Below, piece by piece: positions 45,192-64,000 of a DNA stretch of 64,000 bases. This DNA is from Oscillospiraceae bacterium. Lineage in GTDB: Bacteria; Bacillota; Clostridia; Oscillospirales; QAMX01. Positions within the stretch are counted from its first letter, which is position 1. The number at the start of each line of letters is the position of its first letter. The notes beneath the pieces are model-generated. The model saw only the letters and a program-made list of their open reading frames with translations, searched no databases and was not told where the DNA came from. Position numbers and translations under genes: made by a program. Location: positions 1 through 64,000 of the forward strand of contig SVLQ01000012.1 in assembly GCA_015067825.1 (NCBI GenBank), read 5' to 3'.

Positions 45192-46229
45192 ATGGCAGCT
45201 GAACAGAGCAAACAAGCGGCGGCAGTCGAACCGCCGAAAAAGCAAAAACGGCTTTTTAAGCGCAAACGTGCCGGCGTCGTGCTGACGGCGCAGCAGGTCA
45301 AAGAGATCAAGCAAGGGCGCAAGAAATTGCGCCGCGAGCTGCGCAAACAGGGGATCAAGAAGAAGAAAGACTTCGAACTGACCGCCTCGTCGCTCGGCCT
45401 CTACTTCGACAAAAGCAAAAAGCTCGCCTTATTTTGGTGGTTGTTTTGGGGCAAAGGCAAATGGCTGTGGCTGACGGCCGCTGCTGTGCTGATCGGTGTC
45501 CTCTACGGGATGTCCTACGTGACCGATCTGCACGGCCACTTCACCGTCAGTATGTCCGACCGCCTGTTCCGCGACGGTTTCTCGATTTCCGAGATCCATA
45601 CCTTTGAAAACCCGACTTCCCATCTTTTTGCCAGCCCTGCGGATGGGGTGCCGTGCATTTCGATCACGCGCATCCCCGACAACATCGATGCTGACGAGCT
45701 GGGGGCCAGCGAGGAGTACTTCGCCTATACGTTCTACGTCAAAAACGAGGGCGATGTGGCGCAAAGCCTCGATTGGTCGCTGGATATCCGCTCGCAAAGC
45801 CAAAATCTTTCCGAAGCGGCATGGGTGATGATCTTCGTCGACGGCAAAGCCACGATCTATGCCAAAGCCGACGAAAACGGCGAAGTCGAGGCGCTGCCTG
45901 CCTTCGACGACAATACCCGCGGCTATACCCAACCGCCGCTGTGTGTCCACATGGCCGAACCCGAAACGCAGTTTGAGATGGTCGATACCGGCGGCGTCGC
46001 GGAGCGCTGGCGCGTGAAGCCCAAGCCTTTCCTGGCAGAAGCGCAGATTGCGTCCGGCCGGCTGGAAGATGTTTACCCAACGCAGTACCATAAATTCACG
46101 GTGGTCGTCTGGCTGGAAGGCGACGACCCCGACTGCACCGACGAACTGATCGGCGGCCACATCGGTCTGGACTTCGCGATGGAAGCGGTCGATGAATCGG
46201 AAGAAGAAGCGGAAGAAAATCAAGATTAA
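45192..46229 (+). CDS. Membrane protein of the TasA-like cluster with WLEG motif
   Basis: This 345-residue protein has a long basic cytoplasmic start (about 1-80, rich in Lys and Arg), one helix (WLWLTAAAVLIGVLYGMSYV, about 91-110) and an outer domain. Near its end YHKFTVVVWLEGDDPDCTDE followed by IGLDF matches the WLEGxDxDC motif of the two shorter fibre-type proteins downstream, so it is a relative without the STYAWF element. It could be the membrane base of the structure. It begins 17 bp after the HD-GYP-like gene, and 144 bp separate it from the first long TasA-like gene. The family is unknown to me. Confidence 0.65.
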   Translation: MAAEQSKQAAAVEPPKKQKRLFKRKRAGVVLTAQQVKEIKQGRKKLRRELRKQGIKKKKDFELTASSLGLYFDKSKKLALFWWLFWGKGKWLWLTAAAVLIGVLYGMSYVTDLHGHFTVSMSDRLFRDGFSISEIHTFENPTSHLFASPADGVPCISITRIPDNIDADELGASEEYFAYTFYVKNEGDVAQSLDWSLDIRSQSQNLSEAAWVMIFVDGKATIYAKADENGEVEALPAFDDNTRGYTQPPLCVHMAEPETQFEMVDTGGVAERWRVKPKPFLAEAQIASGRLEDVYPTQYHKFTVVVWLEGDDPDCTDELIGGHIGLDFAMEAVDESEEEAEENQD

Positions 46230-46373
46230 GTCCGCGCAGCAAACAACACGTATCGTGCTCCGGCAGAGCGAACGCTCCGCTTTGTCGGGATCACATAGCT
46301 TCGGCGGAAGCGGGGATCTCCCCAAAAACGCAGAAAGTTTCATCTGATTTTATGAAGAAAGGAAGAATGAAAG

Positions 46374-48707
46374 ATGGAAAATAGTGAACGCAGAGCTCAG
46401 TACGGGCTCCGCGGAAAACTGATCTCGGCGGTCGCCATGCTCATGGTCGCCGTGATCATGTGCGTCTCCTCCACGTACGCTTGGTTCACGCTGTCGACCG
46501 CGCCGGAAGTCACCGGTATTTCCACTGCGGTCGGTGCCAACGGTGCGCTGGAAATGAGACTGAACAGAACCAATCCCTTGAGCGAAGAAGTGAATGCGAC
46601 TTGGGGTAACTTGGTGGACCTGGGCGGCGATAGCGACCTCTACGGTTCGACTGCCATCACGCTCTATCCCTCGACGCTGAATCTCGATGCGACCGGAAAA
46701 CTGACCGGTGCGCTGCTGGGTACACCGGTTTACGGTGCGGACGGCCGCGTGCAGAACGTGAACCCCAACACTGTTACCAGCGGTACCTTTGCCAACAACA
46801 CCTTTGCGCCGGACAGTGCGCTCGGCTTCCGTACCGTCGGTACGGTTTCGGGCATGACGCCGCGTGAACTGGCTCACCGCAACGCCTACGTCAACATCGT
46901 CTCGCAGATGAGCATTGCCCAGAAGGGCGCGCAGGACTCGCTCAGCAAAAACGGTTCTGCGTTGGCGGCGATCGCGGTTGAAATCGCGTTCTCGAGCAAT
47001 CCGACTTACGAAAGAGAGGATGTCGTGGGTGTCGGCAATATGATCGCTGATCTCGAAGCGGCCTGCGTCAGCCTCGAAGAAGCCTATCGTCAGGCGTTCC
47101 TCGCGCTTGCGGCGAGCCAGATCGTCGGCGGCGAAACGGATACGTATTACGAAACCTTGAGCGGTCTGATTACGGCCAAAGTGGATGGTGTGTATACGAC
47201 TCCGCTGGCTACCCTGTATGAACAGATCAAAACCACGGTCGAGGGGCAGACTGCACTTGCCGGTTTTGTGAAAGGCATTGAACAGTATCTGAACGCAACG
47301 ATCACGTACACTGTGACGGAAAACGACGTACCCGTTGTGAAGACCGTTAAGGGTACGCGTGCGGCCATCGACGAAGCGAAAGATGAGTACACTGCGCTGC
47401 TCGCTAAGTTTGATGCCGAAACGGATCCGATTTCCTCCTGCAGCGACGACGACCTGATGGAAGCGCTGCGCCCGCTGGTGAACACCGATATGATCACCGT
47501 TAACGGCTACGCTGCGAAAGGTGAAAACAAAGAAGCGATCGCTTCTTCGGCGCTTTCCAACGGTATTCTGGTCTCCATGCCGAGCCACGGCGGTGTCTAC
47601 GCCGACTTTGCCGACCAGTGCGGCAACTATAAGGTCGCCATCTCGATCGACGCCGGCTCGATTTCTTCGACCCTGAACGGCATGAAAGTCAATGCCTACA
47701 TGGAAACGAAGAGCGACCAGGGCACGTCCTACCTGATCCAGACGAGAGACGCCGTGAAGGGTCTGCCCCTGCCCTCCAATTCGGATACGGTGCTCCCCAT
47801 CACGGAATACTACGGCTACATCATCGACCTTATGTTCCGCACGAATGCGTCGAACTCGAACCTGCTCCTCCAGCAGGATCCGACCGACCGTATCTACGAT
47901 GGCAACCAGAACGAAGAAACGATGGGCGGCGGCAGCAAGATGACCTTCAGAACCGAATCCAATACCCTTGGCTTCGACTCGATCGTCAACCTGATGTCCA
48001 AAATCCGTATCGTCTTCTTTGAAACGAATACCGGCGTGGTTCTGAAGTACGGCAAGCTGGATGTTTCGGACGGCAACATCGAAAACCTCGGTGACGGCGC
48101 GGCGGCAGAGATCTACCTCTATACGCCGGTTGCCAACAACCAGTATGAGTACGAGACCAAGCAGACGGTCGAAGTGTACTACGAAACGGTTGCGGGTACC
48201 ACAACGTATTACACCGATAATACCAAGGCCGACGTAGCGACGATTCCGGCCGGCGTGACCCCGACTCCGGCGGTGGCTGCTGCGACTGAGGGTGAAGCGA
48301 CCTACGAGACCACGATCAAGGTGACTGTGTACAGCAATGATGGTACTACCTTCTATACCGATCCTGCCTGCACGACCGAGAACGTGGCGACGATCCCGTC
48401 CGGCGTGACCCCGACGAAGGTCGCTGCCGCCGAAGACGTCGATGAAGAAAACGTCATTTGCGCGCTGACGCAGAACGAAGAAAAGGCGATCTCCGTCCTC
48501 GTTTACCTCGACGGCGAGAGCATCGAAAACAAAGACGTCGCGGCCGAAACCGCGAAATCGCTGGTTGGCACGATGAACATTCAGTTTGCCAGCAGCGCCA
48601 CGCTGGTTCCGATGGAATATGCGGACCTGCATACGCCCGGCGAATCGTCCTCGACTTCGGCCTCGACTGCGGCCACGGCTGCGGACCCGGCTGCGTCTAA
48701 CCCGTAA
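46374..48707 (+). CDS. Long TasA/camelysin-like surface protein
   Basis: This 777-residue protein starts with a short basic part, a membrane-signal helix at about 15-33 and STYAWFTLSTAPEVTG, the motif after which SipW-type peptidases cut TasA-like proteins. Mature landmarks are ATWGNLVDL, a long helical region (about 190-330), SVLVYLDGESIENKDVAAET and the end TMNIQFASSATLVP, then a Ser/Thr/Ala tail. Two 45-residue units with Y-T-D-VATIP-GVTPT (about 600-690) are an internal duplication. It is paralogous to the partial gene at the right edge. I infer a major fibre or surface-layer subunit. The ATG has AAGGA upstream. Confidence 0.75.
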   Translation: MENSERRAQYGLRGKLISAVAMLMVAVIMCVSSTYAWFTLSTAPEVTGISTAVGANGALEMRLNRTNPLSEEVNATWGNLVDLGGDSDLYGSTAITLYPSTLNLDATGKLTGALLGTPVYGADGRVQNVNPNTVTSGTFANNTFAPDSALGFRTVGTVSGMTPRELAHRNAYVNIVSQMSIAQKGAQDSLSKNGSALAAIAVEIAFSSNPTYEREDVVGVGNMIADLEAACVSLEEAYRQAFLALAASQIVGGETDTYYETLSGLITAKVDGVYTTPLATLYEQIKTTVEGQTALAGFVKGIEQYLNATITYTVTENDVPVVKTVKGTRAAIDEAKDEYTALLAKFDAETDPISSCSDDDLMEALRPLVNTDMITVNGYAAKGENKEAIASSALSNGILVSMPSHGGVYADFADQCGNYKVAISIDAGSISSTLNGMKVNAYMETKSDQGTSYLIQTRDAVKGLPLPSNSDTVLPITEYYGYIIDLMFRTNASNSNLLLQQDPTDRIYDGNQNEETMGGGSKMTFRTESNTLGFDSIVNLMSKIRIVFFETNTGVVLKYGKLDVSDGNIENLGDGAAAEIYLYTPVANNQYEYETKQTVEVYYETVAGTTTYYTDNTKADVATIPAGVTPTPAVAAATEGEATYETTIKVTVYSNDGTTFYTDPACTTENVATIPSGVTPTKVAAAEDVDEENVICALTQNEEKAISVLVYLDGESIENKDVAAETAKSLVGTMNIQFASSATLVPMEYADLHTPGESSSTSASTAATAADPAASNP

Positions 48708-48756
48708 CCCCGAACGATCGGTGTAGCCCACCGGTCTTCACAGGAAAAACGAATGT

Positions 48757-48802
48757 CCCTGCTGTCGGAAATGCCGTTTTTTCGGCGTTTCCGGCAGCGG
48801 GG
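48757..48802 (+). other. 20-bp intercistronic hairpin with T6 loop
   Basis: 48757-48776 pairs with 48783-48802 with a few G-U or mismatches; the loop is TTTTTT. No T run follows, and the next gene begins 52 bp later. It may stabilise the upstream fibre mRNA. Confidence 0.6.
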
Positions 48803-48854
48803 CAAAGCCACATCCCGGCCTTTGTGACCCCGGCAAGCGAGAAAGGTGGACGCT

Positions 48855-49865
48855 TTGGAGCCAATTTTGGAAGAACTGCGGAAGCAACCGAATAGCAAAC
48901 GCGGCAAGAAACGCATCGCCCTGTATTTCTACATGGTGCTGATCCTTCTGCTGTTGTCGACCGTTGCGTCCTACACCTGGTTTTCGCTGACGCGCCGACC
49001 GACGGTCAGTCAGATGGCGCTGTACATTGCCGCCCACAGCGGTTTGGAATTTTCCAAGGAGTTCGAGGGTGGGGAGTGGAGCAATCAGCTCGCCTATCCC
49101 GACCTGGTTTCCGAAACGACCCCGTTGCGTCCTGTCACGTGGTCGGAGAAAAACCAATCGTTTTTTGCCGCGACCTATGGCATAGACGGCAGGATCACCG
49201 ATCGTTGGTGGCCCCTGTCGGATGAGCGGAATGCCAACCGCGACGATTACGACGGTTACTATTGCATCGCATCGTTCTACGCCCGCGCCGGCGACGACGT
49301 CACGGTCTTTTTGGCCGAGGCCGCCGAACCGACCGCAGGAGTGAACGGCGTGGGAACCTATCTGGTCGGCAAACCCCAGTGGAGTGAATCCGAAGTGCGG
49401 CACCTGAACATCGGCCGCGGCGCCGAGAATGCCATGCGCGTCGGGATCGAAATCACGCCTCTGGATGAGAGCGGCCGCCGTCTCGAAGAGACGCAGCTCT
49501 TTTATATCTATGAGCCGAACTGCGATACGCATATCGACGGTTCGATCGGTTATGTTGCGACGCCCAGCATCGACGGCGAGGAATCGTTGGTGCCGGCAGA
49601 GCGGCTTTTGCCGCAAACCGTTTCCTCTTGGGTCGAGACCGATCCGGTTGAAAGGGGCGTCCAGTTTTACACGTACGGAAAGTTTACTGCCCCTGTTGAG
49701 CTGTTTACGATGAAAACAGGGGAGAAGGTGCAGATCCGGCTGTATTTCTGGCTGGAAGGCCAAGACGTCGACTGCACAAATGCGCTAATCGAATCGCAGA
49801 TTTTAGCGAACATCCAATTTGTTTCGGTGGGCGAAGGAGGATCCGGACTGGTGCCGGTGTCCTAA
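48855..49865 (+). CDS. Short TasA-like surface protein with SYTWF and WLEG motifs
   Basis: This 336-residue protein has a 20-residue basic cytoplasmic start, a helix at about 21-38, then SYTWFSLTRRPTVSQM, the expected SipW-type processing region. The outer domain ends in VQIRLYFWLEGQDVDCTN and ILANIQFVSV, the closing strands shared with other proteins of the block. The TTG at 48855 is preferred to the GTG at 48846, as the latter belongs to AGAAAGGTGG. It lies just before a SipW-like peptidase gene, the same order as seen at 54.5-56.6 kb. A minor or capping subunit is a reasonable guess. Confidence 0.7.
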   Translation: MEPILEELRKQPNSKRGKKRIALYFYMVLILLLLSTVASYTWFSLTRRPTVSQMALYIAAHSGLEFSKEFEGGEWSNQLAYPDLVSETTPLRPVTWSEKNQSFFAATYGIDGRITDRWWPLSDERNANRDDYDGYYCIASFYARAGDDVTVFLAEAAEPTAGVNGVGTYLVGKPQWSESEVRHLNIGRGAENAMRVGIEITPLDESGRRLEETQLFYIYEPNCDTHIDGSIGYVATPSIDGEESLVPAERLLPQTVSSWVETDPVERGVQFYTYGKFTAPVELFTMKTGEKVQIRLYFWLEGQDVDCTNALIESQILANIQFVSVGEGGSGLVPVS

Positions 49866-49980: not shown

Positions 49981-50931
49981 ATGAACGAAAAAAGTGAAAC
50001 CGTAGGCGAAAAGCTCCGCGTGGAAAAACCTGTAGCTAAAAAAGAAAAAAAGAAGCGGAATGTAAAGAAGACGGTCAACACGATTATCAATGTCGTGCTG
50101 ATCGTGGCGATCATCGTCGCCGCCATCTGTACCTACATTTCGTTTGTCAATACGTCCGGTACCGGCGTGCCGAATATTTTGGGTCTGCGTCTGCTCTCGA
50201 TCCAGACCGATTCTATGTACCCGACCATTAAGGCCGGCGACTTGGTAATCGATGTCGGTGTGGGCGATGCGTCCGAATTGCGCAGTGGGGATGTCATCAC
50301 CTATTGGACGATGATCAACGGCGAACACGTCCTCAATACGCATAGAATCGTAGCAATTTATGATGGCGGCGAGCACCTCATCTTTGAGACGAAAGGTGAT
50401 GCCAACTCTACCGCCGACCCGATGACGGTCCATGAAAACAAGATCGTCGGCAAGTATAAGTTCCGGATTCCCGGTGTCGGTAAGGCCATCGACTATCTGC
50501 AGACGAGCACCGGCTTCCTGCTGGTGGTGCTGATACCGGTCTTCATCTTCTTTATCTTCCATTTGGTGCAGTTCTTCCGCGTGCTCTTTGAGTATCAGAA
50601 CGTCAAGAACCGTATCAAGTATGAGCAGGAGCGCGGCAAAACCGAGGATCTGATCGCCGCGCAGAAGGCCGCGGAGGTCAAGAAAGAAGTCGAGCGCGCG
50701 CAGATGGAAGCCGAACTGCGCGAAAAGCTCCGCGCCGAGCTGTTGGAATCGATGAAACAGGAACAGGCCGCGAAAGCCGCCGAAAAAGCGCCGGAAGAAC
50801 CTGTGAAAGAAGCCGCCGAAGAAACGGCGGAAGAACCTGCGAAGGAAGCCGCCGAAGAAAAAGCGGAAGAACCTGTGAAGGACACTGCCGAAGAAAAGAC
50901 CGAAGCATCTGCCGGTGAGCAGGAGGCGTAA
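49981..50931 (+). CDS. SipW-like (ER-type) signal peptidase I, first copy
   Basis: This 316-residue protease has a basic start, a helix at about 33-55, catalytic Ser78 (QTDSMYPTIKAGDL), His121 in place of the bacterial lysine (NTHRIVAI) and the ER-type signature ETKGDANSTADP. A second helix (about 177-197) is followed by an unusual cytoplasmic tail of about 115 residues, with a charged coiled coil and then Glu/Ala repeats (AEEPVKEAAEE type). SipW in Bacillus processes TasA and TapA for biofilm fibres. The gene lies between a TasA-like gene and the AAA ATPase gene. The tail is not found in ordinary SipW and may bind the ATPase machinery. Confidence 0.9.
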   Translation: MNEKSETVGEKLRVEKPVAKKEKKKRNVKKTVNTIINVVLIVAIIVAAICTYISFVNTSGTGVPNILGLRLLSIQTDSMYPTIKAGDLVIDVGVGDASELRSGDVITYWTMINGEHVLNTHRIVAIYDGGEHLIFETKGDANSTADPMTVHENKIVGKYKFRIPGVGKAIDYLQTSTGFLLVVLIPVFIFFIFHLVQFFRVLFEYQNVKNRIKYEQERGKTEDLIAAQKAAEVKKEVERAQMEAELREKLRAELLESMKQEQAAKAAEKAPEEPVKEAAEETAEEPAKEAAEEKAEEPVKDTAEEKTEASAGEQEA

Positions 50932-50986: not shown

Positions 50987-52591
50987 ATGGATAATTTCTT
51001 CAGATATTTTTATCAGGATTTTGGGAATCTTTTCAACGCATTGGTGGATATGTTTGTGGCAATGGGCAATTTCTTGAACCATCTGCTGAATTTTCCGATG
51101 CGTATGGAACTGATCAAGAAATATGAGGAAGATTTCACCACGACCGACTGGATCATGCTGTTGGTGGTCAATCTGATCCTGATCGCGCTGATCATTTTGT
51201 TGGTGATCGCCGTCGTGAAGCTGATGCGGAAGATTTTCCGCGTCCGGGTTTCGCCGAAAAAGTACGATGCGGTCGTGAAGCAGGTGCGCAGCCTGCAGCG
51301 CGATCTCATCCGTGCCAATTACGAAAAAGATCGTCTGCTGGCCATGCGTGTGGATCAGTTGGGAGAATTTGGTTCGGAGCCCCAGCTCGATTTGGGCTCC
51401 GAACAGGGGCAGGAACATCCTGCCGCAGCAGCCGAAGAATCAGCCGCCGGCGAAGAGCTTGTTCTCAGCAACCGCAATACGCGTTTCTCACCCTGCGTCG
51501 ATCCGGCGGAAAGCCGTTTTTTCCGCCTGACCAGTGTCGACAACTTCTACAAAACCGAATACCGGCCGCCGGTTTACGAGCAGAACTTCACGCTGGAGGA
51601 ATTCTGCGACCGCTTCCGTCGGTTTACGGCATCGCGCCTGAAACTCTATTATGAAGAAGACATGATGCGGTTCTTCGTCGCCTCCATGGGCACGGCGCGT
51701 ATCATCATTCTTCAGGGTATTTCCGGTACCGGTAAGACGAGTTTGCCCTATGCGTTCGGCAAATTTGTGCAGAACGACTCCTCCGTTGTTTCCGTCCAAC
51801 CGTCCTGGCGTGAACGTACGGAATTGTACGGCTATTACAACGAATTCACCAAAAAATACTCCGAAACCGACTTCCTGCGCGCTCTCTATGAGAGCAACTA
51901 CTACCGCGATCCGCACGTCGTAATTCTCGACGAAATGAACATTGCGCGTGTCGAGTATTATTTCGCGGAAATGTTGTCGATCCTGGAACTTCCGCTGCAG
52001 GAAGAATGGAACATCGATATCGTCACGGCGGTTTGGGACAACGACCCGTGCCTGATCGAAGGCGGCAGCGTGCAGATCCCCAACAACGTCTGGTTTGTCG
52101 GTACGATTAACAACGACGACTCGACCTTTGCCGTCGCCGATAAGGTCTACGACCGTGCGATCCCCATCGACCTCGACAGCCGTGCCGATGCGTTTGAATG
52201 TGAGCCTGCCGACCCGATTTTCGTTTCGACCGACTATTTGAACGCGCTGTTTGCCAAAGCAAAAGAAGATTTCCCGATCTCCGAAGAGATCATCGAAAAA
52301 CTGGAAGTTGTCAACGCCTACGTGATCAAAGTGTTCCGTTTGGCGTTCGGTAACCGTGTTATGAAACAGATCCGCGAATTCGTGCCCTGCTTCATCGCCT
52401 GCGGCGGAACCGAGATTCAGGCTGTTGACTTTATCGTCGCCAAAAAGGTTCTGCGTAAGTTTGAATCGCTCAGCGTCGGCTTCATGAAAGACGAACTGAC
52501 GCGCTTCTCGAACTTCCTGGATAAGACCTTTGGCAAAAACCAAATGAAGATCTGCAAAGAATACATCGAAATTTTGAAGAAGACCAACTGA
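50987..52591 (+). CDS. Membrane-anchored McrB-like AAA ATPase
   Basis: This 534-residue protein has a helix at about 54-79, a charged linker and a C-terminal AAA domain from about 200. Walker A is ILQGISGTGKTSLP (about 241-253), Walker B VVILDEMNIARVEYYFAEML (about 310-330) and sensor 1 VGTINNDDST (about 371). The DEMN-AR-EYYF pattern is that of McrB-type ATPases of DUF2357/McrC systems. A membrane anchor is unusual for those. The next gene encodes a DUF2357-like protein, the normal partner. Embedding in a SipW/TasA cluster suggests work at the membrane on fibre proteins instead of DNA. Starts at an ATG after AAGGG. Confidence 0.85.
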   Translation: MDNFFRYFYQDFGNLFNALVDMFVAMGNFLNHLLNFPMRMELIKKYEEDFTTTDWIMLLVVNLILIALIILLVIAVVKLMRKIFRVRVSPKKYDAVVKQVRSLQRDLIRANYEKDRLLAMRVDQLGEFGSEPQLDLGSEQGQEHPAAAAEESAAGEELVLSNRNTRFSPCVDPAESRFFRLTSVDNFYKTEYRPPVYEQNFTLEEFCDRFRRFTASRLKLYYEEDMMRFFVASMGTARIIILQGISGTGKTSLPYAFGKFVQNDSSVVSVQPSWRERTELYGYYNEFTKKYSETDFLRALYESNYYRDPHVVILDEMNIARVEYYFAEMLSILELPLQEEWNIDIVTAVWDNDPCLIEGGSVQIPNNVWFVGTINNDDSTFAVADKVYDRAIPIDLDSRADAFECEPADPIFVSTDYLNALFAKAKEDFPISEEIIEKLEVVNAYVIKVFRLAFGNRVMKQIREFVPCFIACGGTEIQAVDFIVAKKVLRKFESLSVGFMKDELTRFSNFLDKTFGKNQMKICKEYIEILKKTN

Positions 52592-52642: not shown

Positions 52643-54532
52643 GTGGCGGAAGCAAAACGAAATACCAAGAGCACTTCTGAAAACGGTGTCGATCTGATCG
52701 ATCCGTTGTATCAGAAGTTTACGAAAAGTGTTGTGCGAGCCCTTGGCAGCTCGGATTTTTACGCATATTTTATGCAGGCGATCGCGCAGGCCGATAACGA
52801 AATCCAGTTTTCCAACCGCCGAATGGAAAAAATCGTCGATCTCGAATGGGTTGATGCAATCGAATCCTCGCTGCCGGCATTCCAGCACATCATTGATTTG
52901 CCGCGAAACGTCATCCGCGAAGACGAGTTGATCGTGAATGTCGCAAATGCCAAAAAATCCGACAGCGCTGTGGTACGCCACCTCGCCATGCATGCGTCGA
53001 TGGTTGAAGATTTTCGGGAGGATACGGGCGATGTACGGCCGAACAAGCTGATGCAGAAGTACCGCGAAGAGTCCATCGGCAAGGTTTACGAAAATCGTCT
53101 GGTGTTTACGACGCTGGAAATCGCGTATCAGTTCGTCAAGATCCGCCACGATGCGCTGTTTGAGGCGATGAGCGACGAATTCGGCGCGAAGCTGAAGCTG
53201 AGGTCCGATATGGTGGGTTCGAACGAGCAGATGCATCTGGATATGTTTCTGCACATCCGCGATACCGAGAGCGCGCTGCAAACAGATGAGCGCAATCAAG
53301 ATGTTTTCGACCGGATTTCGCGTCTTTACCGTATTTTAGCGGTCAACATGAACTCGAATTTTGCGCAGCAGTTGGCAAAAGAGCCGCGTATCAAGGGCAC
53401 GGTTACGAAGACGAACGTCTTGAAGAAAAATAAAGACTACCGCGCTGTATCGCAGTTGCTGGAATTTCTCCGCGGCTATAATAACATTGGTTATACGATC
53501 AAAATCATCGAGCAGAATCCGGTGGTGGATGAGGCGTTTGAACAGAGCATTTACCATAATATTCTGTTCCAATACCTTGTTTTGAAGGGGCATTTGGAGC
53601 GCGATAAAGACCGCCGCCTGCCGGCCCCGCTGAAACAGAAAAAACGCGCACTGAAACCAAAATTCGTGAAGGAAATCATTGAAGAACTGACCGAGGATTA
53701 TGACCTTCCGGATGTTGAGATCCGCAAAGTTCTGATCGAAGAACTGACGAAAGAACAGTTGATGCGCGAAGAAGCTGCCGAACGCCGACGCTTGGTGGAG
53801 GAACAGGCACAGCGCAAAAAGGAAGAAGAAGCACGTATCCGCAAAGAAAAACAGGAAGAAAAAGAGCGGCTCCGCAAAGAACGCGAAGCCGAAAAAGAAC
53901 GGCAACGCAAAGAAGCCGAAGCAGAGGCGCAGCGCAAGCTGGTCGAGCGCATGGAGCGCGAACAGGAAGACCGTCGCCGGAGTGGGTTGTTCAAGAAAGA
54001 ACTGGAACACTTTACGGCGCACTTTGCGGAACGCTTGGAACTGCGCCACGAAACTGCGGAAGAAGAGCAGGTTGCCCGCCAGGACTTCGAAGATGCGGCT
54101 TTCATTTTGGAGGAGACCGAACGCCTCAAGCGAGAGGAAGCCGAACGCGCGCGGATTCGCCGCCGGGAAGAACAGGAACGCCGGATTCAAGCCGAACTGG
54201 AAGCACAGCAGCAGGCTTTGGCGGCCGAAAACGAGCGCCGGGAAAAACTCCGTCAGGAAAAACTGGCAGAGGAAGCGCGGCGTCAGCGGGAGATCGAGGA
54301 ACAGGAAGAGCTTGCCCGCCAGGAAAAAGCCCGCCGCGATATGGAGGCGGTGCGTCTGTACGCAGAAGAAATCGGACGATTCTGGCAGATGCGCGAATAT
54401 CGCCAGTATTTGCGCAACGATTATGCCAATGCCCAAATCCGGATGCAGCAGGCGCGGGAAGAAGAACGGCAGAAACTGCTGGATGCCCGCAATGTTTCCC
54501 AGAAGCGAAATAGGAGATTTTGGAGAAGATGA
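52643..54532 (+). CDS. DUF2357-like protein without nuclease core, with long coiled coil
   Basis: This 629-residue soluble protein has a DUF2357-like region at about 85-320: VVRHLAMHASMVEDF, KVYENRLVFTTLEIAYQFV (149-167) and TNVLKKNKDYRAVSQLLEFL are the expected landmarks of the McrC-like partner of McrB-type ATPases. In that family a PD-(D/E)XK nuclease follows; no D..(D/E)xK motif is visible here. Instead residues 350-620 are an almost continuous charged coiled coil, rich in Glu, Arg, Lys and Gln. I infer a structural adaptor driven by the ATPase. The GTG at 52643 has AGGAGG upstream; the stop overlaps the next gene by four bases (ATGA), which ties it to the fibre gene. Confidence 0.7.
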   Translation: MAEAKRNTKSTSENGVDLIDPLYQKFTKSVVRALGSSDFYAYFMQAIAQADNEIQFSNRRMEKIVDLEWVDAIESSLPAFQHIIDLPRNVIREDELIVNVANAKKSDSAVVRHLAMHASMVEDFREDTGDVRPNKLMQKYREESIGKVYENRLVFTTLEIAYQFVKIRHDALFEAMSDEFGAKLKLRSDMVGSNEQMHLDMFLHIRDTESALQTDERNQDVFDRISRLYRILAVNMNSNFAQQLAKEPRIKGTVTKTNVLKKNKDYRAVSQLLEFLRGYNNIGYTIKIIEQNPVVDEAFEQSIYHNILFQYLVLKGHLERDKDRRLPAPLKQKKRALKPKFVKEIIEELTEDYDLPDVEIRKVLIEELTKEQLMREEAAERRRLVEEQAQRKKEEEARIRKEKQEEKERLRKEREAEKERQRKEAEAEAQRKLVERMEREQEDRRRSGLFKKELEHFTAHFAERLELRHETAEEEQVARQDFEDAAFILEETERLKREEAERARIRRREEQERRIQAELEAQQQALAAENERREKLRQEKLAEEARRQREIEEQEELARQEKARRDMEAVRLYAEEIGRFWQMREYRQYLRNDYANAQIRMQQAREEERQKLLDARNVSQKRNRRFWRR

Positions 54533-55851
54533 ACAAGCTTGGCCCAAAACTGATTGCTGCGACGATGGCGGTTGTTTTGGCAGTTGTCATGTCCGTCATG
54601 GTAACGTATGCGTGGACGGTGCTTTCTACAGCGCCTGTGGCAGAAGGGATTCAAATCACGATCGGCGGTAGCAATACGATACTGGTCGCACCCGATCTGA
54701 CCAAAACCGTAGACGGAAAGACCTATCATTTCCCGGGTGGATTCAGCGGAAAACTGAATTTCTCGCATCATGAGGCGTATGCCTATCTGTCGGAAATTGC
54801 GTCGATGATGCCGGTTTCCACCGCAGACGGTAAGCATTGGATCATCCCGGAATATTACGATATTTTGGATGAGGCTGTGCTCAATGGCGAAGCTTGTGTT
54901 GGCGTTATGAAGCCAATGGAGGAGTTCACGGTCGATACGCAACTGCAATATGCGAACCTGACCGAATTTTCCGCAAGCGGCAGTTATGTTTACCTGGATT
55001 TCTGGGTCGTTTCTCCGGGAACGGAATATACGCTACGTATGTCGCACGGTGATGAAAACGGCGGAAGTTATCTGCTGGAACTGATGGATGCGGCAGAGAC
55101 TGCTGACGGCGGTTTTGTTTTGACGGCAACCGAAGGGACTGCGGCAGCAACAGCCAGAATTGGTTTTTTGGTCAATTCCAACCCCGCCGGGGAAACGGCA
55201 CTGTCCTGTTACCGGGAAAGTGCGACGTTTTCGGACCAATATCGAAAGCTTGTCGGTGTTTTTGAAGCAGAACAGACCGGTGGTGTTTGGCAGCAAGAAA
55301 ACTTTACGATCTACGAACCCAACGGTGATGTTCACCCGAACGGCGAAAACGGAACATACGTCCTCACGCGTCCTCTGGGCATTGTCGGCGGACGGGTGCA
55401 GGAAACCGATATTTGGAATTGTCTTTCGGTCTCTCTGGAGAACCGGTGGAAGCAGGCCGATGCATATACTCCGCCGATCGACGAGCTGTTTCAGGCGGCA
55501 TTGCTGGGCAAGAACATCAATTCTGCGCAGGAAGCAGAGCATGAGTTTTACAACAAATACCTGCAAGGGCAGTTTATGCCCTATGTCGACAAAGGACAAT
55601 TTATCCAAAGTACGGCTTCGTTGCAAGGGTATTGCTACGGCGACGGAATGGTCAGTATAGAGGAAATGCGTGCTTTGCAGACCGCAGGGGCAACAGATGA
55701 TATCTCCATTGTAACACTGCAGAAGAATGTTCCGCAGAGGATTCGGATGTTCCTTTGGCTTGAGGGTCAGGATGTTGACTGCGCCAATACGGAAAGCCCG
55801 ATCAACTTTGCGGTCAGTATAGAGCTGGCGGGGAGCAATTGGGATCATTAG
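54529..55851 (+). CDS. Short TasA-like surface protein with VTYAW and WLEG motifs
   Basis: This 440-residue protein has a membrane-signal helix at about 8-25 and VTYAWTVLSTAPVAEG, similar to STYAWFTLSTAPEVTG of the long protein. The outer domain includes YLDFWVVSPGTEYTLR and ends with QRIRMFLWLEGQDVDCANTE and FAVSIEL. The ATG at 54529 overlaps the stop of the DUF2357-like gene (ATGA), which indicates translational coupling. A SipW-like gene follows. It is a relative of the product of 48855-49865, with larger insertions. Confidence 0.72.
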   Translation: MNKLGPKLIAATMAVVLAVVMSVMVTYAWTVLSTAPVAEGIQITIGGSNTILVAPDLTKTVDGKTYHFPGGFSGKLNFSHHEAYAYLSEIASMMPVSTADGKHWIIPEYYDILDEAVLNGEACVGVMKPMEEFTVDTQLQYANLTEFSASGSYVYLDFWVVSPGTEYTLRMSHGDENGGSYLLELMDAAETADGGFVLTATEGTAAATARIGFLVNSNPAGETALSCYRESATFSDQYRKLVGVFEAEQTGGVWQQENFTIYEPNGDVHPNGENGTYVLTRPLGIVGGRVQETDIWNCLSVSLENRWKQADAYTPPIDELFQAALLGKNINSAQEAEHEFYNKYLQGQFMPYVDKGQFIQSTASLQGYCYGDGMVSIEEMRALQTAGATDDISIVTLQKNVPQRIRMFLWLEGQDVDCANTESPINFAVSIELAGSNWDH

Positions 55852-55865
55852 AAGATAATTGGAAA

Positions 55866-56657
55866 ATGAAGCAAAGTCAAACGAAAGACAAGAGCATAGG
55901 TAATTTGTGGCTGTCCCGAATTGTGACACTGATCCTTGGTGTTGCGGTTTGTTTCTGCCTGTTTGTTCTGGTGCAGGTGGTCAGTCGTGGATACGCGTCT
56001 CTCGGCGGATACAGTTTTTTCAAGGTCGTAACGGGGAGCATGGAACCCAACCTTTCTGTTGGTGAGTTGTTGCTGACCAAACAAATAGATCCGGCCGAAA
56101 TTGCAGTGGATGATATTATCAGCTTTCGTTCCCGTTCCCCGGGAATGATCGGGGCATTTATCACACATCGTGTCATCGGGAAAGATGTTGACGAAGGCGG
56201 CACCGTGCGTCTTTGGACGAAAGGGGATGCCAACTTGGTCGCAGATGTCGATCCGGTTACAACGGACAATCTGGTAGGAAAAGTCGTATGGAAATCGGGG
56301 GGGAGTTTTGTGTCAAAGATTATGTCATTTTTGTCCGGGCGATATGGATTTTTGGTCTGTATCGCGTTCCCCATGCTGTTAGGCGCTGCCTGGATTTTGC
56401 GTGAAAACATACGGGCGATGCGACGGGATATGCAGACCATATTGGAAAGCATAGAACAGTCGAACCCGGAAGCCGAGTCTTCCGCGCCTGCTGCCGGTGA
56501 GATGTCCGAGTCTGCATCTGAAGAGACACCTGATGCGGCGTCCACTGAGACATCTATGGAAGACGAAGAGTATCAACAACTATGCGAAAAAATTCGCGCT
56601 GAATTGATAGAGGAGCTAAAACACAGTGACGAACCCAAACAGCCGGAACAGGAATGA
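55866..56657 (+). CDS. SipW-like (ER-type) signal peptidase I, second copy
   Basis: This 263-residue protease has a helix at about 17-40, catalytic Ser58 (VVTGSMEPNLSVGELLL), His101 (FITHRVIGKD) and RLWTKGDANLVADVDP. A second helix (about 155-175) is followed by an acidic Ser/Glu-rich tail, shorter than in the first copy. The two copies are diverged, so they may process different clients. The start is uncertain: the ATG at 55866 has only a weak site, and an in-frame TTG at 55839 lies inside the previous gene. Its 3' end overlaps the next gene by 32 bases. Confidence 0.87.
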   Translation: MKQSQTKDKSIGNLWLSRIVTLILGVAVCFCLFVLVQVVSRGYASLGGYSFFKVVTGSMEPNLSVGELLLTKQIDPAEIAVDDIISFRSRSPGMIGAFITHRVIGKDVDEGGTVRLWTKGDANLVADVDPVTTDNLVGKVVWKSGGSFVSKIMSFLSGRYGFLVCIAFPMLLGAAWILRENIRAMRRDMQTILESIEQSNPEAESSAPAAGEMSESASEETPDAASTETSMEDEEYQQLCEKIRAELIEELKHSDEPKQPEQE

Positions 56658-58539
56658 AACCGGTAAAGGTGCGCCTGCTCAATTGAAGGTGCTGCGAAAA
56701 AGTGTATATTTGCGTGTCGGCATGGTGTTTCTGATTGTCGCCTTGACGATCATACTGGTTTTTGCGTTGACTGTGGCTTGGTATGTCAATGTTGTGCAAA
56801 GCAGCAACTTGAATTTTACTGCCGAAACCTGGAATTTTACCGGTGAGATCGATGTGGAGAATCCGGTTTTCTCTGCGGCTCCGGGCGACAACGGCGTGGT
56901 GTCTATGTCGCTGAAAAACGACAGTTCCAGCTTGGTTGCGGCGAGTGTGACGGTTTCCAAAGCGCAACTGAACGACGATATGCGCGATAAACTGTTTTTC
57001 TATGTGGACACGACAGCGACCAGAAACAGCGAGACCGTGGAGCGGGTCTATATCAGCTCTTCGGCGAGCTATACGTATACCATTTTCCCCTTTGGTGAAA
57101 TTGCGATGACAGATCATACGTATAATGCGGCCCGGATCATGTGGGAATGGCCGTATGATACTTTGGGGTATTATGTGCTGGGAACGGTGACACCGACCCG
57201 CCTTCCGGATATTGATGAGTATCTGCGCCCGATCGAATACGAGTACGACGAGCAGAATACAACATTCAACTCCGCCGGCGAACTTTTGACGATTGACGGG
57301 GTCACCCCGGCAACCGACTTTTTGGTGGAGCTGTCTCAAACAGACGGATACCGCGGTGTGATCGATCCGGGTGCTGCTGTCAGCGGCTATTACCCGGTGG
57401 ATGTAGATGCCAATGGTTACGGCGTTTGGGCGTATTTTTGCACCTACGCAGAAATTCAAAGCAATAACCGTATTTCGACGGAACTGGGGGAAAACAACGC
57501 GGATATAGGATCGGTCCAGCTTCAGGTGATCGGACAGAACAGCCGCGAAGAAGGCATTTCTGTGTCGTCGCCTGCAGAGCTTACGGCGGTTCTCTACCAG
57601 GATGGATTGCATATGGTGCGGATGGAACAGGATATCGAATTGTCGCAATCGATTCAGGTCGGCAGTAATACCGGTATTATGATCGATATGCAGGGGCATA
57701 CGTTGACCTCGACCGCATCCACCGTGATCGACGCGAAGCCCGGCTCCAATGTGATGCTTTATAATGGCACACTGGATGGTGCGAATCAGGCCGAAACCGC
57801 AATTTATGCCAGTGGTGGTGTCGTGACGCTGAACGGCGTAACGATTGAAAATGTGGAAGAAGGCCTGAAGATTTTTGACAACGAGAACAATTCCAATATG
57901 GATTCCACGATCCGCTTGTTTGACTGCAAGATCATGTGTGAGACGGATGGTTTGTGGATCAAAGGAAATGGTGCGAAGTCCGAGAAAAAGACCGTCGTTG
58001 TCATCGAAAACTGTGAGATGATGGGAGAAGGGTATGCCGGTTTGCTTTGTAACGGCACCTACTATGGCTGTGATATTCGTGTTAGCGGCGATAGTAAGAT
58101 CTCCGGTAAATACGCAGGGATCTATTTCCCGACGAAAGACAGTACCCTGACTGTTGAAAACAGTACAATAGAAGGCTATACGGGCCTGGTCGTCAAGGGT
58201 GGTTCTGTCGAGGTGAACAATTCCGTCATCATCGGCATTGGTGAGCGCAATGATCCGGATCCAGATGCGCTGTCGCAGAGTGGATGGACCGATACGGGTG
58301 ACGGTGTGTATTTGGAAGCGAACTACACCAATTGGCTGACCGATATCCGGATATCCGGAGAGAATACACGTGTTGTCAGCATGAATGCTGAGGCTGTGCG
58401 GATGTGTCCGGACGGGTTGGATACTGCGTCCATCACGATTACCGGCGGTTCGTTCAGCAGTGTTGTTGGGTATTTTAACAAGGATACGCACGAATTGGTC
58501 CAGTTCGCCGACGATGTCTATGTCGTCCGGGCGAAATAA
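56626..58539 (+). CDS. Membrane-anchored beta-helix surface protein
   Basis: This 637-residue protein has a basic start, a helix at about 32-50 ending FALTVAWYVN, which is similar to the TYAW elements, and an N-terminal beta domain (about 60-300). Residues about 330-620 form a right-handed parallel beta-helix: IMIDMQGHTLTSTASTVID, VMLYNGTLDGANQAETAIYA, GVVTLNGVTIENVEEGLKIF and later rungs repeat the short strand pattern of pectate-lyase folds. No catalytic set is clear, so binding or structural function is more likely than cleavage. The GTG at 56626 has AGGAG ten bases upstream and lies inside the end of the second SipW-like gene, a sign of coupling. Confidence 0.78.
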   Translation: MTNPNSRNRNETGKGAPAQLKVLRKSVYLRVGMVFLIVALTIILVFALTVAWYVNVVQSSNLNFTAETWNFTGEIDVENPVFSAAPGDNGVVSMSLKNDSSSLVAASVTVSKAQLNDDMRDKLFFYVDTTATRNSETVERVYISSSASYTYTIFPFGEIAMTDHTYNAARIMWEWPYDTLGYYVLGTVTPTRLPDIDEYLRPIEYEYDEQNTTFNSAGELLTIDGVTPATDFLVELSQTDGYRGVIDPGAAVSGYYPVDVDANGYGVWAYFCTYAEIQSNNRISTELGENNADIGSVQLQVIGQNSREEGISVSSPAELTAVLYQDGLHMVRMEQDIELSQSIQVGSNTGIMIDMQGHTLTSTASTVIDAKPGSNVMLYNGTLDGANQAETAIYASGGVVTLNGVTIENVEEGLKIFDNENNSNMDSTIRLFDCKIMCETDGLWIKGNGAKSEKKTVVVIENCEMMGEGYAGLLCNGTYYGCDIRVSGDSKISGKYAGIYFPTKDSTLTVENSTIEGYTGLVVKGGSVEVNNSVIIGIGERNDPDPDALSQSGWTDTGDGVYLEANYTNWLTDIRISGENTRVVSMNAEAVRMCPDGLDTASITITGGSFSSVVGYFNKDTHELVQFADDVYVVRAK

Positions 58540-58592
58540 TACGATGGTTTAGAAGCAGGGGGCAAACAGCCTTGAAAACAGGAGAAGAGTGA

Positions 58593-60452
58593 ATGAAAGG
58601 AAAAACTTCAAAACGCTGTCTGTTTAGAATCGGGCTGTCTGTTTTTCTGGCTTTTTGCAGCTTGCTGCTTGCAATTGGCACCACTTTAGGCAGGTACACG
58701 ACGACAATCGAAGGCGAAGTTCGTTTTCAGGCGAAAACGGTGGCCTCACTTTCTCTGTCGCGACCGGAAAATTTGCTCGACCAAGACGGGGAAGAGAATG
58801 TCCCGGAAACGCAAGAAGGATCCTTCTTACAGAATTGGCAGGCGGTCGGCGGCGAACAGTATTTGTCGTTTTTGATCAGCAATTCATCTGATGTGGGTAC
58901 TATTCCGGAACAGGATATCGCATTCCACATCCGTGTATTTGTTCCGGATATGGTAGAGACCAAACCCGTGGTAACCAGTGTTCCGACGAGTGAGATGCAG
59001 TCGGGGGAAGATCAAACCGATGAACCGCCGGAACTGTCGGGGTCCGTCACAGATGCTTCGACGGAGAGTTCCAGCGAGGCAGACGAGCCGCCAGCGGAAC
59101 CGTTTTCTACGGAGACTACCGAGCCGCCTGCAGAACCGACTTCTGCGGAGACTACCGAGCCGCCTGCGGAACCGTCTTCTGCGGAGGTTACCGAACCGAC
59201 TGCGGAACCGTCTTCTGCGGAGGCTACCGAACCGACTGCGGAACCGACTTCTGTGGAGGTTACCGAACCGACTGCGGAACCGTCTTCTGCGGAGGCTACC
59301 GAACCGACTGCGGAACCGACTTCTGCGGAGGACACCGAACCCTCTGCGGCAGAGACTAACGATGAACCGATAGAAACGGAGCAACAATTGATGCAGCAGC
59401 AGTTCCTGATGCCTGTATTATTGACTGATATTTTGGCAAACCACACGGAGACTGATGCAACCGAACCGCCGGCCGAGGCGACGACCTCCGCGAGCAGCGC
59501 GGAGACCGATGCAACCGAACCGCCGACTGAGCCGGCGACCCCCGCGAGCAGCGCGGAGACCGATGCAACCGAACCGCCGGCTGAGGTGATGACTTCCGCG
59601 AGCAGCGCGGAAACCGATGCGACCGAACCGCCGACTGAGCCGGCGACCTCCGCGAGCAGCGCGGAGACCGATGCAACCGAACCGCCGACCGCACCGGCGA
59701 CCTCCGCGAGCAGCGCGGAGACCGATGCAACCGAACCGCCGACCGCACCGGCGACCTCCGCGAGCAGCGCGGAGACCGATGCAACCGAACCGCCGGCCGA
59801 GCCGGCGACCTCCGCGAGCAGCGCGGAAACCGATGCAACCGAACCGCCGGCCGAGGCGACGACCTCCGCGAGCAGCGCGGAGACCGATGCAACCGAACCG
59901 CCGGCCGAGGCGACGACCTCCGCGAGCAGCGCGGAGACCGATGCAACCGAACCGCCGACCGCGCCGACGACCTCCGCGAGCAGCGCGGAGACTGATGCGA
60001 CCGAACCGCCGGAAGTGACAACTTCCGCAAGCAGTGAGGAGACCGACATTACATCGCCGCCATTTGCGGAAACGGAGACCTCGCAATCCGGTGACGTCGG
60101 AGATGAAGAGCCTCCGCTGCCGGACGAAGAACCGCTGTTGGTCAATGGTGGTCAATTGACCTTTACGCTGACCATAGAAACCGACAACTATACATACATG
60201 GCGGTTTCCGCGGTGGACTATCTCAGCAACCGTACACCCATGTACCGTGAACGCGGTGAAAATGGTTGGATATACAGCTTCTACCTGGTTTTGGATGCGG
60301 AGTTGGGCGAAACAGATCCCAACGAGTTTCTCTATACGTTCCGCCGTGGTGCCGTCCGTGAAATTTCGGTGACACTGGCGGTACAGAATACGATCGTAGA
60401 TTGTTCCTATTTCCAGATTCTGGTCGAGCGGATCGGCTATACCGGCCGTTGA
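58593..60452 (+). CDS. Repeat-rich surface protein with Pro/Thr/Glu stalk
   Basis: This 619-residue protein has a signal helix (about 11-29) and LGRYTTTIEGEVRFQAK, a motif seen after signal peptides of clostridial surface proteins in such clusters. A first beta domain (to about 130) is followed by seven 12-residue units (type EPPAEPTSAETT) and then ten full and one short 18-residue units (type ETDATEPPAEATTSASSA). The C-terminal 110 residues (LTFTLTIETDNYTYMAV ... YFQILVERIGYTGR) are globular. The stalk is Thr/Ser rich and may be O-glycosylated. There is no wall anchor. Repeat number is expected to vary between strains. Confidence 0.78.
   Translation: MKGKTSKRCLFRIGLSVFLAFCSLLLAIGTTLGRYTTTIEGEVRFQAKTVASLSLSRPENLLDQDGEENVPETQEGSFLQNWQAVGGEQYLSFLISNSSDVGTIPEQDIAFHIRVFVPDMVETKPVVTSVPTSEMQSGEDQTDEPPELSGSVTDASTESSSEADEPPAEPFSTETTEPPAEPTSAETTEPPAEPSSAEVTEPTAEPSSAEATEPTAEPTSVEVTEPTAEPSSAEATEPTAEPTSAEDTEPSAAETNDEPIETEQQLMQQQFLMPVLLTDILANHTETDATEPPAEATTSASSAETDATEPPTEPATPASSAETDATEPPAEVMTSASSAETDATEPPTEPATSASSAETDATEPPTAPATSASSAETDATEPPTAPATSASSAETDATEPPAEPATSASSAETDATEPPAEATTSASSAETDATEPPAEATTSASSAETDATEPPTAPTTSASSAETDATEPPEVTTSASSEETDITSPPFAETETSQSGDVGDEEPPLPDEEPLLVNGGQLTFTLTIETDNYTYMAVSAVDYLSNRTPMYRERGENGWIYSFYLVLDAELGETDPNEFLYTFRRGAVREISVTLAVQNTIVDCSYFQILVERIGYTGR
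59085..59336 (+). repeat. Seven tandem 36-bp repeats in the surface-protein stalk
   Basis: Units encode EPPAEPTSAETT and variants such as EPTAEPSSAEAT, in frame; an eighth partial unit (EPSAAET) follows. Copies differ from each other more than those of the 54-bp array. Confidence 0.85.
59448..60038 (+). repeat. Ten full 54-bp tandem repeats plus a 51-bp unit
   Basis: Units begin at 59448, 59502 and every 54 bp to 59988 and encode ETDATEPPAEATTSASSA and close variants; positions 9-13 of the unit vary (AEATT, TEPAT, TAPAT). Some units are almost identical at DNA level, so recent slippage or recombination is likely. Confidence 0.92.
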
Positions 60453-60498
60453 ACGTGGCGCGTCTGCGATTTCGACCGATTCCTGATGAGGTGACACA

Positions 60499-63400: not shown

Positions 63401-64000
63401 TGCCGAATACGGTCGTCGGCCAGTTCATGCGCGAGGACGGTGCAGTTGCCACGGTACGTTTTAAATATGATGCGACCACCGGCAGCTGGCGCGGAAGAGC
63501 GGTCTTTGTCTCTTCCGGCGAATACAAGATGGAATTGGTAGAACTCAACGGCAAGTATGAGCCCCTTGGCGAAGACCAAACCTGTACGCTCGACCTAACG
63601 CTCGGTATGTACGTGGAGGTGGAAACGACCTCTCCGTCTGGGCAGGACACCATGATCTTCGGCGACCCGGCTACCCCGTCTTCTCTGCAGGTGCAGGTTG
63701 GGATCTACAACAACAACGGCGATCCCATCCGGGCGCTTGGCCGCGCGGGCTTGAACTACACGGCTGGCGGTTCGACCAATCTGTATACGGCGCTGACCTG
63801 GAACAGCGTGGAAGAATACTACGAAGGCGAATTCCACGTGGAGGCCGGTATCTGGCGCTTCCAAAACGTGAAGATCACGATGGGCGAAGGCGACGGTAAA
63901 ACCAATACGCTGACGTCGGTCAAGGGCGAACCTCCGGTCTTTACGGTGATTCCGCCGACTCCGCCGACGTACAAAGACCTTGGCACAGTCGGTGAAACTT
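60499..64000 (+). CDS. Long TasA-like surface protein, second copy, truncated by the window edge
   Basis: An open frame of at least 1167 codons runs from the ATG at 60499 (GAGGTGA upstream) to the end of the window. The start has a helix at about 21-38 and SFAWLALSTNPEVSNVST, the equivalent of STYAWFTLSTAPEVTG. ITWGNLIDLSDPAY, PLYGPVYDTTGRVID, AVFYLDGEEITNGDVLAAAD and QMNLQFGSSVSLN follow in the same order as in the product of 46374-48707, so the first 830 residues are a paralogue. The part beyond is new: repeated beta domains with TTKVKIRVSGDTPASMKAYF and DSDRDGIWEGSYTF suggest Ig-like modules. Probably a larger fibre subunit with an adhesive extension. Confidence 0.8.
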   Translation, partial: MEDTRQRIKEYTGRLVRLREKVVAVALLLVISASMLTTVSFAWLALSTNPEVSNVSTNIAANGNLEIALASGTMGDPTVVGPSKAGDSNLPPLERNITWGNLIDLSDPAYALDRLVLRPALLNESNLLSKPLYGPVYDTTGRVIDKDTSSGYAKLLNGVLTSTDELGVRAITSMRYGEAGAVSVYNNKLNVVESANVRNKTNYQGLAETEDYMDALASMMTGYMVQNILKVNSSVGNMVSDATLKGADLTQFALMYDEMILRYEEQAEVFASLLNLYAEVNAYDAEKQAVVGTPTSITGAELLALEYSVANKTAYNKLATQFGLLANGKYTGAKKGFIIAIDQFLADYHLMVAESVRVKDLRDYVNRQSGQSIKWPNCPTLENSTVRIIDDIINNFTVVNNCTISGSSYENGKAIKISSVGAGVAMALKNSVCETKITNGILYNFDTFTGARIRNPEGKPLTLTVQAMGTQTIKSNVSTSADDDYFENERFVLANIIKTKIGQPTEIAKDSYGFAVDFWVRTNAQGSFLTLQGNVLTETEIVEVMGKDRNGVEVQLYTISVKAETEEETDPAETTAPVGGGILDDLATATYDIYMSTDTRLVLDDKGEPVVDGEGNAVTEEVPCWRYADTHAIVADEYVAEYNFEDKLPPKKIEEIEHVLCFEGDNRVWDDSGSFLTVNSTTQGSGSCYVFYAENPVDQARIMVLLKSMKVAFVDAQGKLLTTAYMDTEHHYATTGKVIVPLVLDPESLNIGADDQGNIRYAITALEQNVATLITAVFYLDGEEITNGDVLAAADIRGQMNLQFGSSVSLNAMKDETLYNAELVVTGEIDGRTEFEYGVDTDLTTKVKIRVSGDTPASMKAYFIRKINSTQGSPEESFILTDSDRDGIWEGSYTFAYPGEYILRSVQVDGTDRELSNPTDQFPTVKVNGFSISRVIYSEADGTEIMTGAASYPVDVELWFATSDRSKMPNTVVGQFMREDGAVATVRFKYDATTGSWRGRAVFVSSGEYKMELVELNGKYEPLGEDQTCTLDLTLGMYVEVETTSPSGQDTMIFGDPATPSSLQVQVGIYNNNGDPIRALGRAGLNYTAGGSTNLYTALTWNSVEEYYEGEFHVEAGIWRFQNVKITMGEGDGKTNTLTSVKGEPPVFTVIPPTPPTYKDLGTVGET

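Follow-up and report, generated by a model that had tools for sequence, protein, structure and literature searches.

A CoCoPALM-type AAA/DUF2357 gene pair in a conserved Clostridia locus for SipW-like signal peptidases and candidate surface-fibre subunits

Gene content of the locus

The window, a 64,000-base stretch of Oscillospiraceae DNA, covers the initial 64 kb of contig SVLQ01000012.1 (99,368 bases), which belongs to a 2.7 Mb genome that is 98% complete. It contains a locus in which the genes for a membrane-anchored McrB-like AAA protein and a DUF2357 protein are embedded among genes for two SipW-like signal peptidases and for five candidate peptidase substrates (Table 1). The initial annotation of the sequence described ten consecutive plus-strand genes. 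The genes are indeed consecutive on this strand, but there are eleven (45192-65622), the last of which is cut by the window end. The genes either overlap or are separated by gaps of at most 145 bases. The ATGA overlap at 54529, which is preceded by AGGAGA, and the 32-bp overlap at 56626 were both confirmed, and the second recurs in related loci (32 bp in L010 and L012, 29 bp in L011; L and G numbers refer to loci and genomes, respectively). The gene at the ATGA overlap has a further possible start, TTG at 54520, for which the ATG was preferred.

The presence of two endoplasmic reticulum (ER)-type signal peptidases was verified with TIGR02228, the model for ER/archaeal-type signal peptidases, whose cut-off of 51.85 bits was exceeded by both proteins (93 and 82 bits). 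By inspection, the catalytic residues of SipW-like protein 1 are the Ser in TDSMYPT, the His in THRI and the Asp in KGDAN, and SipW-like protein 2 keeps the triad in TGSMEP, ITHRVI and KGDAN. SipW-like protein 1 also matched the Bacillus-specific model NF046067 (E 1.1e-31), below the cut-off of that model. Genome-wide, only two SipW-type genes were found, both in the locus.

The AAA protein possesses a transmembrane (TM) segment at residues 56-74, followed by a charged linker that is probably a coiled coil and then by the AAA domain. Walker A (GISGTGKTS), Walker B (ILDEMN) and GTINNDDS motifs are evident in the domain, and Walker A, Walker B and NNDDS are invariant across 21 AAA sequences. The AAA_5 family was matched by 13/13 members of the protein family, and E. 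coli McrB (6hz4) was the sole meaningful solved relative when the profile was compared with the PDB (E 1.1e-5). The adjacent protein had been proposed to be DUF2357-like. Although Pfam gave no match for the window protein itself, PF09823 (DUF2357) was matched by 5/13 aligned relatives (best E 1.6e-13), which bears the proposal out. A structure model of this protein contains a continuous C-terminal helix at residues 361-628 (~270 residues) of highly charged sequence. Fold searches with the model returned coiled coils and spectrin-like bundles only, and the absence of McrC from this list is not counter-evidence.

At least four proteins with a membrane-signal helix and a TYAW or SYTWF-type motif had been anticipated, and five were found: in each an N-terminal hydrophobic helix is followed by TYAWF, SYTWF, TYAWT, TVAWY or SFAWL. 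In a scan for this combination 6/11 locus genes passed compared to 4/45 genes elsewhere on the contig; five of the six are real and one, SipW-like protein 2 itself, is a false positive. The best match to TIGR04088, the SipW-dependent signal peptide model, had an E value of only 0.96 and occurred in a relative. Profile comparison with hhalign aligned the C-type and D-type proteins over nearly their full length (99.7%, E 3e-25), and the B-type (777 amino acids, aa) and E-type (1707 aa) proteins over most of theirs (100%, E 3e-63). The four profiles all share the signal region, and control profiles of the AAA, DUF2357 and SipW proteins did not match the subunit profiles. On this basis the subunits are assigned to two families, C with D and B with E. 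The A-type protein matched the C-type protein at the C-terminus (hhalign 88%); A, C and D end in WLEG(Q/D)D..DC, and a related YLDGE motif is found in B and E. The two remaining surface proteins had been described as a beta-helix protein and a repeat protein. The former description stands as a match, but one that is sub-threshold in Pfam (19.7 bits versus a Beta_helix cut-off of 25.9). The latter has proline/threonine-rich repeats, and its slot in relatives is taken by a variable protein of ~200-660 aa.

The A-type protein is a candidate membrane anchor or initiator. Residues 20-85 (45192-45460) form a basic cytoplasmic tail that is strongly conserved in the gut clade, with the motif KRAGVVLT..EV..IK.GRKKLR..., ...FELTASSLGLYFDK, and that is absent from distant A-type proteins. 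The tail is a possible docking site.

No match was detected in PDB sequence searches with the C-, D- and A-type profiles, and no sequence similarity to TasA was detected in the locus substrates. The structure of the C-type subunit was compared as a moderate-quality model (predicted local distance difference test, pLDDT, 72; predicted template modelling score, pTM, 0.71). Foldseek returned nothing significant for this model. In VIA-align the archaeal thread 7pnb ranked first (Z 6.0), the list also including self-complemented FimA (Z 5.5), wild-type FimA, CooA and, lower, the Pyrobaculum bundling pili 7ueg (Z 3.9). Several donor-strand pilins thus head the neighbor list, which is suggestive, but not at a trustworthy level, as models without a clear match typically reach Z values of 7-8 by this method. 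A TasA-like fold is suggested by the model.

The gene immediately upstream of the A-type gene (43696-45174) encodes a protein in which the EAL catalytic motifs are lost, the EAL motif itself being absent, and in which the HD dyad reads HQ. As both the HD and EAL parts are degenerate, the sequence makes a role as c-di-GMP-type receptor or as scaffold more likely than catalysis.

Table 1. Features of the locus and its flanks. Coordinates are positions in the window unless preceded by a locus number.
Feature	Coordinates	Strand	Evidence
2229-aa surface protein, C-terminal dockerin type I and FIVAR	33399..40088	+	Dockerin_1 E 1.6e-6, above cut-off
FIVAR-repeat surface protein, signal peptide, C-terminal TM 552-570	40103..41848	+	FIVAR E 1e-13
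FIVAR-repeat surface protein, C-terminal TM	41968..43653	+	FIVAR E 4e-17; family kept in L010-L025
Cytoplasmic degenerate HD-GYP and EAL-like protein	43696..45174	+	HD_5 E 3.4e-13; EAL sub-threshold
A-type protein, one TM (92-110), extracellular beta-rich domain, ends WLEGDDPDC	45192..46229	+	Alignment, 17 loci
B-type subunit, signal helix ends TYAWF	46374..48707	+	hhalign to E-type; 16 homologues
C-type subunit, SYTWF, beta-rich, WLEGQDVDC	48846..49865	+	Alignment; structure model
SipW-like ER-type signal peptidase 1	49981..50931	+	TIGR02228 93 bits; NF046067 E 1.1e-31
Membrane-anchored McrB-like AAA protein	50987..52591	+	McrB 6hz4 profile match; invariant motifs; TM 56-74
DUF2357 (McrC N-terminal-like) protein, long helix	52643..54532	+	PF09823 in relatives; model
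D-type subunit, TYAWT signal motif	54529..55851	+	hhalign to C-type; ATGA overlap
SipW-like ER-type signal peptidase 2	55839..56657	+	TIGR02228 82 bits
Beta-helix-like surface protein, TVAWY after TM	56626..58539	+	Beta_helix E 7e-4, sub-threshold; 14 homologues, equivalent position
Proline/threonine-rich repeat protein, helix ends TLGRYTT, SAETDATEPP-type repeats	58593..60452	+	Sequence; slot in relatives
E-type large subunit, 1707 aa, SFAWL	60499..65622 (window cut at 64000)	+	Sequence; hhalign to B-type
74-76 aa coiled-coil-like protein	L063:10482-10712, L028:4062-4292, L029:7428-7655, L066:4989-5213		

Conservation, linkage and history

Relatives of the locus were found by scanning genome contigs with the AAA protein. 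The equivalent scan with the DUF2357 protein found no relatives, probably because the peptide patterns used came from variable or coiled-coil regions of the protein. Gene order is kept with few substitutions in 16 further independent contigs, mostly from metagenome genomes of gut Clostridia: dockerin/FIVAR, HD-GYP/EAL, A, B, C, SipW, AAA, DUF2357, D, SipW, beta-helix, variable slot, E. The conserved block also reaches upstream to 33399, beyond the 45192 boundary of the initial annotation. In a class-level sample AAA matches were present in 35/391 genomes, about 20 of them strong. More distant loci, from this sample and from genomes of the same taxonomic order, keep a core that comprises EAL, A-type, TYAWF, SipW, AAA, DUF2357 and SipW genes. 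In a phylum sample of 398 genomes, mostly outside the class, only the genome under study was recovered (1/398) with an AAA threshold of E 1e-60, a cut that would miss more diverged relatives.

The gene content of loci with a TM-type AAA protein was recounted in six frames. DUF2357 just downstream of AAA, together with at least one SipW gene, was observed in 32/32 of these loci. At least two SipW genes are present in all but L028, in which the contig is cut, and L071; the A-type gene is present in 28/32. The initial annotation regarded the AAA/DUF2357 pair as built into the fibre locus, a view that would have been refuted had the pair never been found beside SipW genes in other genomes. The pair was found beside them in all TM-type loci, which supports its place in the fibre locus.

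In the AAA tree the 32 SipW-linked sequences form one side of a branch with 94/97 support, and identity across this branch falls to about 42%. The sister group consists of six loci, five with a tandem AAA-DUF2357-AAA arrangement and one with a lone AAA-DUF2357 pair, in which no SipW, A-type or TYAWF gene was found. The fibre genes therefore follow the SipW-linked AAA branch specifically. Overall, the sequence comparisons strongly support the composition, conservation, linkage and lineage specificity of the locus.

The tandem sister loci are L073, L074, L076, L077 and L078. In L074 and L077, the tandem loci whose neighbors were scanned, the gene that follows encodes a large membrane protein whose core is a transglutaminase domain. 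Genome G395 carries both a SipW-less tandem system and a SipW-type locus.

In several orders the A-type gene is immediately preceded by an EAL-type gene, often degenerate, and some loci have an extra, intact GGDEF-EAL protein downstream. EAL domains, counted at the cut-off set by Pfam, occurred within 7 kb of the AAA gene in 10/13 genomes with a TM-type AAA protein compared to an expectation of 0.34 given how many EAL domains each genome has (P ~4e-15). The 7 kb limit was chosen post hoc and the genomes are related, so that P should not be read at face value; the excess is nonetheless very large. In G039, G134, G395 and G071 the EAL of the locus is the only one in the genome.

The history of the locus was examined by comparison with RadA (30951-32321), which is encoded 1 kb upstream of the conserved block. 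RadA is 70-71% identical to its counterparts in G009 and G014, which belong to the same family, and 48-50% identical to those in G071 and G395, which belong to other families of the class. In contrast, the AAA protein shares 71% identity with its counterpart in G395 (L013, same contig), but only 42-43% with those of G039, G038 and G023 of the same order. Moreover, the DUF2357 gene was absent in twenty genomes of the same family. Because the kinship of RadA disagrees with that of the AAA protein and these twenty genomes lack the gene, the locus has probably been transferred between families or been lost widely. Comparison with empty sites on the RadA side in same-family genomes was uninformative as the flanking genes are not syntenic there.

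Relation to known systems and proposed function

The initial annotation knew of no described system with this composition, a view that did not hold. CoCoPALM was named in 2024 in a single paragraph, with its study deferred (Bell et al., 2024; PMC11090510), and a clostridial SipW operon with several secreted proteins, sipW-bsaABCRSD of C. perfringens, has also been described (PMC7395162). According to the available text of the former paper, CoCoPALM systems are linked to signal peptidases, their GTPase signature has the NxD form and an FtsB-like N-terminus is proposed for them; the DUF2357 domain of McrC is noted to stimulate McrB. Four of the CoCoPALM features given in that text recur here: the McrB-like AAA protein, in this case with an N-terminal TM/coiled-coil part, the adjacent DUF2357 McrC homologue, its coiled coil, and adjacent signal peptidase genes. 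The locus is of the CoCoPALM type by these features, and the combination of AAA, DUF2357 and signal peptidase has already been described. The motif GT(I/A)NNDDS can be read as NxD followed by D, or as NxxD, and HMMER aligns it without gaps to the NTAD of McrB. No DivIC/FtsB match was present among the Pfam families listed for 13 AAA members. The available text of Bell et al. (2024; PMC11090510) makes no mention of TYAWF/TasA-like substrates, an A-type anchor or EAL proteins, and no follow-up study was found in the open literature, nor any publication that lists substrates or assigns a receptor or function. A description of the substrates, of the A-type anchor, of the EAL partner or of the contrast to SipW-less sister loci was likewise not found, although the supplement to that paper may list some of them.

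The locus shares with tapA-sipW-tasA of B. subtilis, whose SipW substrates, TasA and TapA, assemble into donor-strand fibres (PMC9674648), a SipW-type peptidase, dedicated secreted substrates (putatively of beta-sandwich fold in the present locus) and a candidate anchoring or initiating protein. The B. subtilis operon, however, has one SipW and lacks an ATPase, DUF2357 and EAL protein. The C. perfringens operon likewise combines SipW with several secreted proteins, of which BsaA forms filaments, but is under two-component regulation, has one SipW and lacks an AAA/DUF2357 pair (PMC7395162). The archaeal thread (Saci_0406, 7pnb; PMC9715654) and the bundling pili are neighbors of the C-type model at Z values of 6.0 and 3.9, respectively; these values are weak, sequence similarity was not found and no AAA partner is described for either structure. 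Compared to E. coli McrBC, to which the locus is related through McrB, the nearest solved structure to its AAA domain, and through the DUF2357 domain of the partner, the AAA protein has a membrane anchor in place of a DNA-binding domain, a nuclease is lacking and the genes lie in a fibre-gene context.

From these observations we infer a mechanism for which the chances appear about even, namely that the CoCoPALM-type locus builds surface fibres by nucleoside triphosphate (NTP)-driven, EAL-gated assembly of subunits. The signal peptidases would release beta-sandwich subunits outside the membrane, and the A-type protein, anchored in the membrane, would be the base on which the released subunits polymerize by donor-strand exchange. 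The AAA protein may hexamerize on the cytoplasmic face, where the DUF2357 domain would dock in the AAA pore and stimulate NTP hydrolysis by analogy with the action of McrC on McrB. The coiled coil would then transmit work to the cytoplasmic tail of the A-type protein, to precursors that are still tethered, or to both, such that subunit hand-over, fibre initiation or fibre release is NTP-driven. The EAL-like protein may gate the machine, either by cyclic di-GMP (c-di-GMP) or by protein contact. A more specific proposal, that in Clostridia a membrane-anchored NTPase derived from McrBC became the motor of a surface-fibre system gated by c-di-GMP, which would be a new type of energised fibre machine, in which DUF2357 and the coiled coil couple NTP hydrolysis to the assembly or release of SipW-processed donor-strand subunits and a catalytically dead EAL protein is the receptor, is tentative and on balance unlikely.

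Several points weigh against NTP-driven, EAL-gated assembly. The EAL gene is absent in three loci of one family (L068-L070), and no TYAWF proteins of the families described here were recognized nearby in L027-L029. The DUF2357 model (pTM 0.36) is too poor for comparison with McrC, and the best structural match of the C-type subunit is weak at Z 6.0. Most importantly, to our knowledge TasA, archaeal threads and BsaA polymerize without an ATPase, which implies that fibres of this type can generally form with no such machine.

The AAA protein may alternatively act in quality control by extracting or unfolding stalled membrane precursors, or by switching signal-peptidase access, as an FtsH-like or MoxR-like chaperone for TYAWF pre-proteins. 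The N-terminal helix holds substrates in the membrane until cleavage, the TM anchor adjoins the AAA domain, and the AAA/DUF2357 genes are central, between the two peptidase genes, all of which would suit this role. However, neither a protease domain nor a VWA partner was found with Pfam and NCBIfam, and DUF2357 is known in the McrBC setting as an NTPase activator instead of a substrate adaptor. The explanation is possible but doubtful.

Surface-linked defence against phage was also considered, in which a CoCoNuT-like membrane machine would sense phage at the fibre or envelope and shut the cell down, with the fibre genes providing bait or receptor. The closest characterized relatives of the AAA protein are McrB and the CoCoNuT GTPases (PMC11090510), and the protein matches the PADLOC defence candidate PDC-M26A (E 1e-42). 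The SipW-less relatives match this model as well, and as both fibre-linked and SipW-less AAA proteins do so, PDC-M26A may partly collect non-defence AAA proteins. By contrast, the DUF2357 partner matched no PADLOC model. With Pfam and NCBIfam no nuclease domain was detected in the AAA or DUF2357 protein, and no nuclease, HEPN, methyltransferase or other effector domain in the proteins of the locus (ten proteins scanned with NCBIfam). Unlike mobile defence genes, the pair occupies a fixed place in an unchanged series of surface genes from one contig to the next, and a defence role appears improbable. Finally, it is likewise improbable that the genes are merely co-located, with AAA/DUF2357 serving another envelope process such as division, for which the FtsB-like N-terminus proposed for CoCoPALM might speak: the sister AAA-DUF2357-AAA genes beside transglutaminase surface proteins lack SipW, and hence AAA/DUF2357 pairs can work without TYAWF substrates, but SipW and DUF2357 occur together in 32/32 loci of the TM branch at AAA identities down to about 42%, and coding sequences overlap (ATGA and 32 bp).

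Relatives of McrBC have been studied as nucleic-acid restriction systems. If NTP-driven assembly of surface fibres is correct, one branch of McrBC-type NTPases has been turned to cell-surface building. The locus and its relatives supply CoCoPALM with five candidate substrates of the TYAWF type, a conserved partner that is anchored in the membrane and has a cytoplasmic tail, and an EAL partner with strong statistical support. Many of the relatives are from ruminant or herbivore guts, where attachment to plant fibre may involve surface fibres, dockerins and FIVAR proteins.

Flanking genes and further observations

The giant dockerin/FIVAR protein and the two FIVAR proteins with a C-terminal TM segment (33399-43653) are kept directly upstream of the locus in relatives. 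Homologous fragments of the dockerin protein (33399-40088) were present upstream in 11/16 loci (L010-L025). The N-terminal domains of the FIVAR proteins appear cohesin-like by eye, and a cohesin there could pair with the dockerin, but the Pfam families listed for nine members did not include cohesin. The region contains sigma-70-like sites at chance level only (10 found versus 8.5 expected), which gives no grounds for naming a promoter.

Downstream of the locus, after a gap of 818 bases, the contig encodes a 582-aa surface protein with a C-terminal TM segment (contig 66440-68188; L002:4440-6188). A homologue is located within locus L013, between the D-type gene and the second SipW gene and beside an extra FIVAR protein. 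In a subset of loci, a conserved coiled-coil-like protein of 74-76 aa (EKKR(A/T)RSQAALV-type) is encoded just downstream of the second SipW gene (Table 1).

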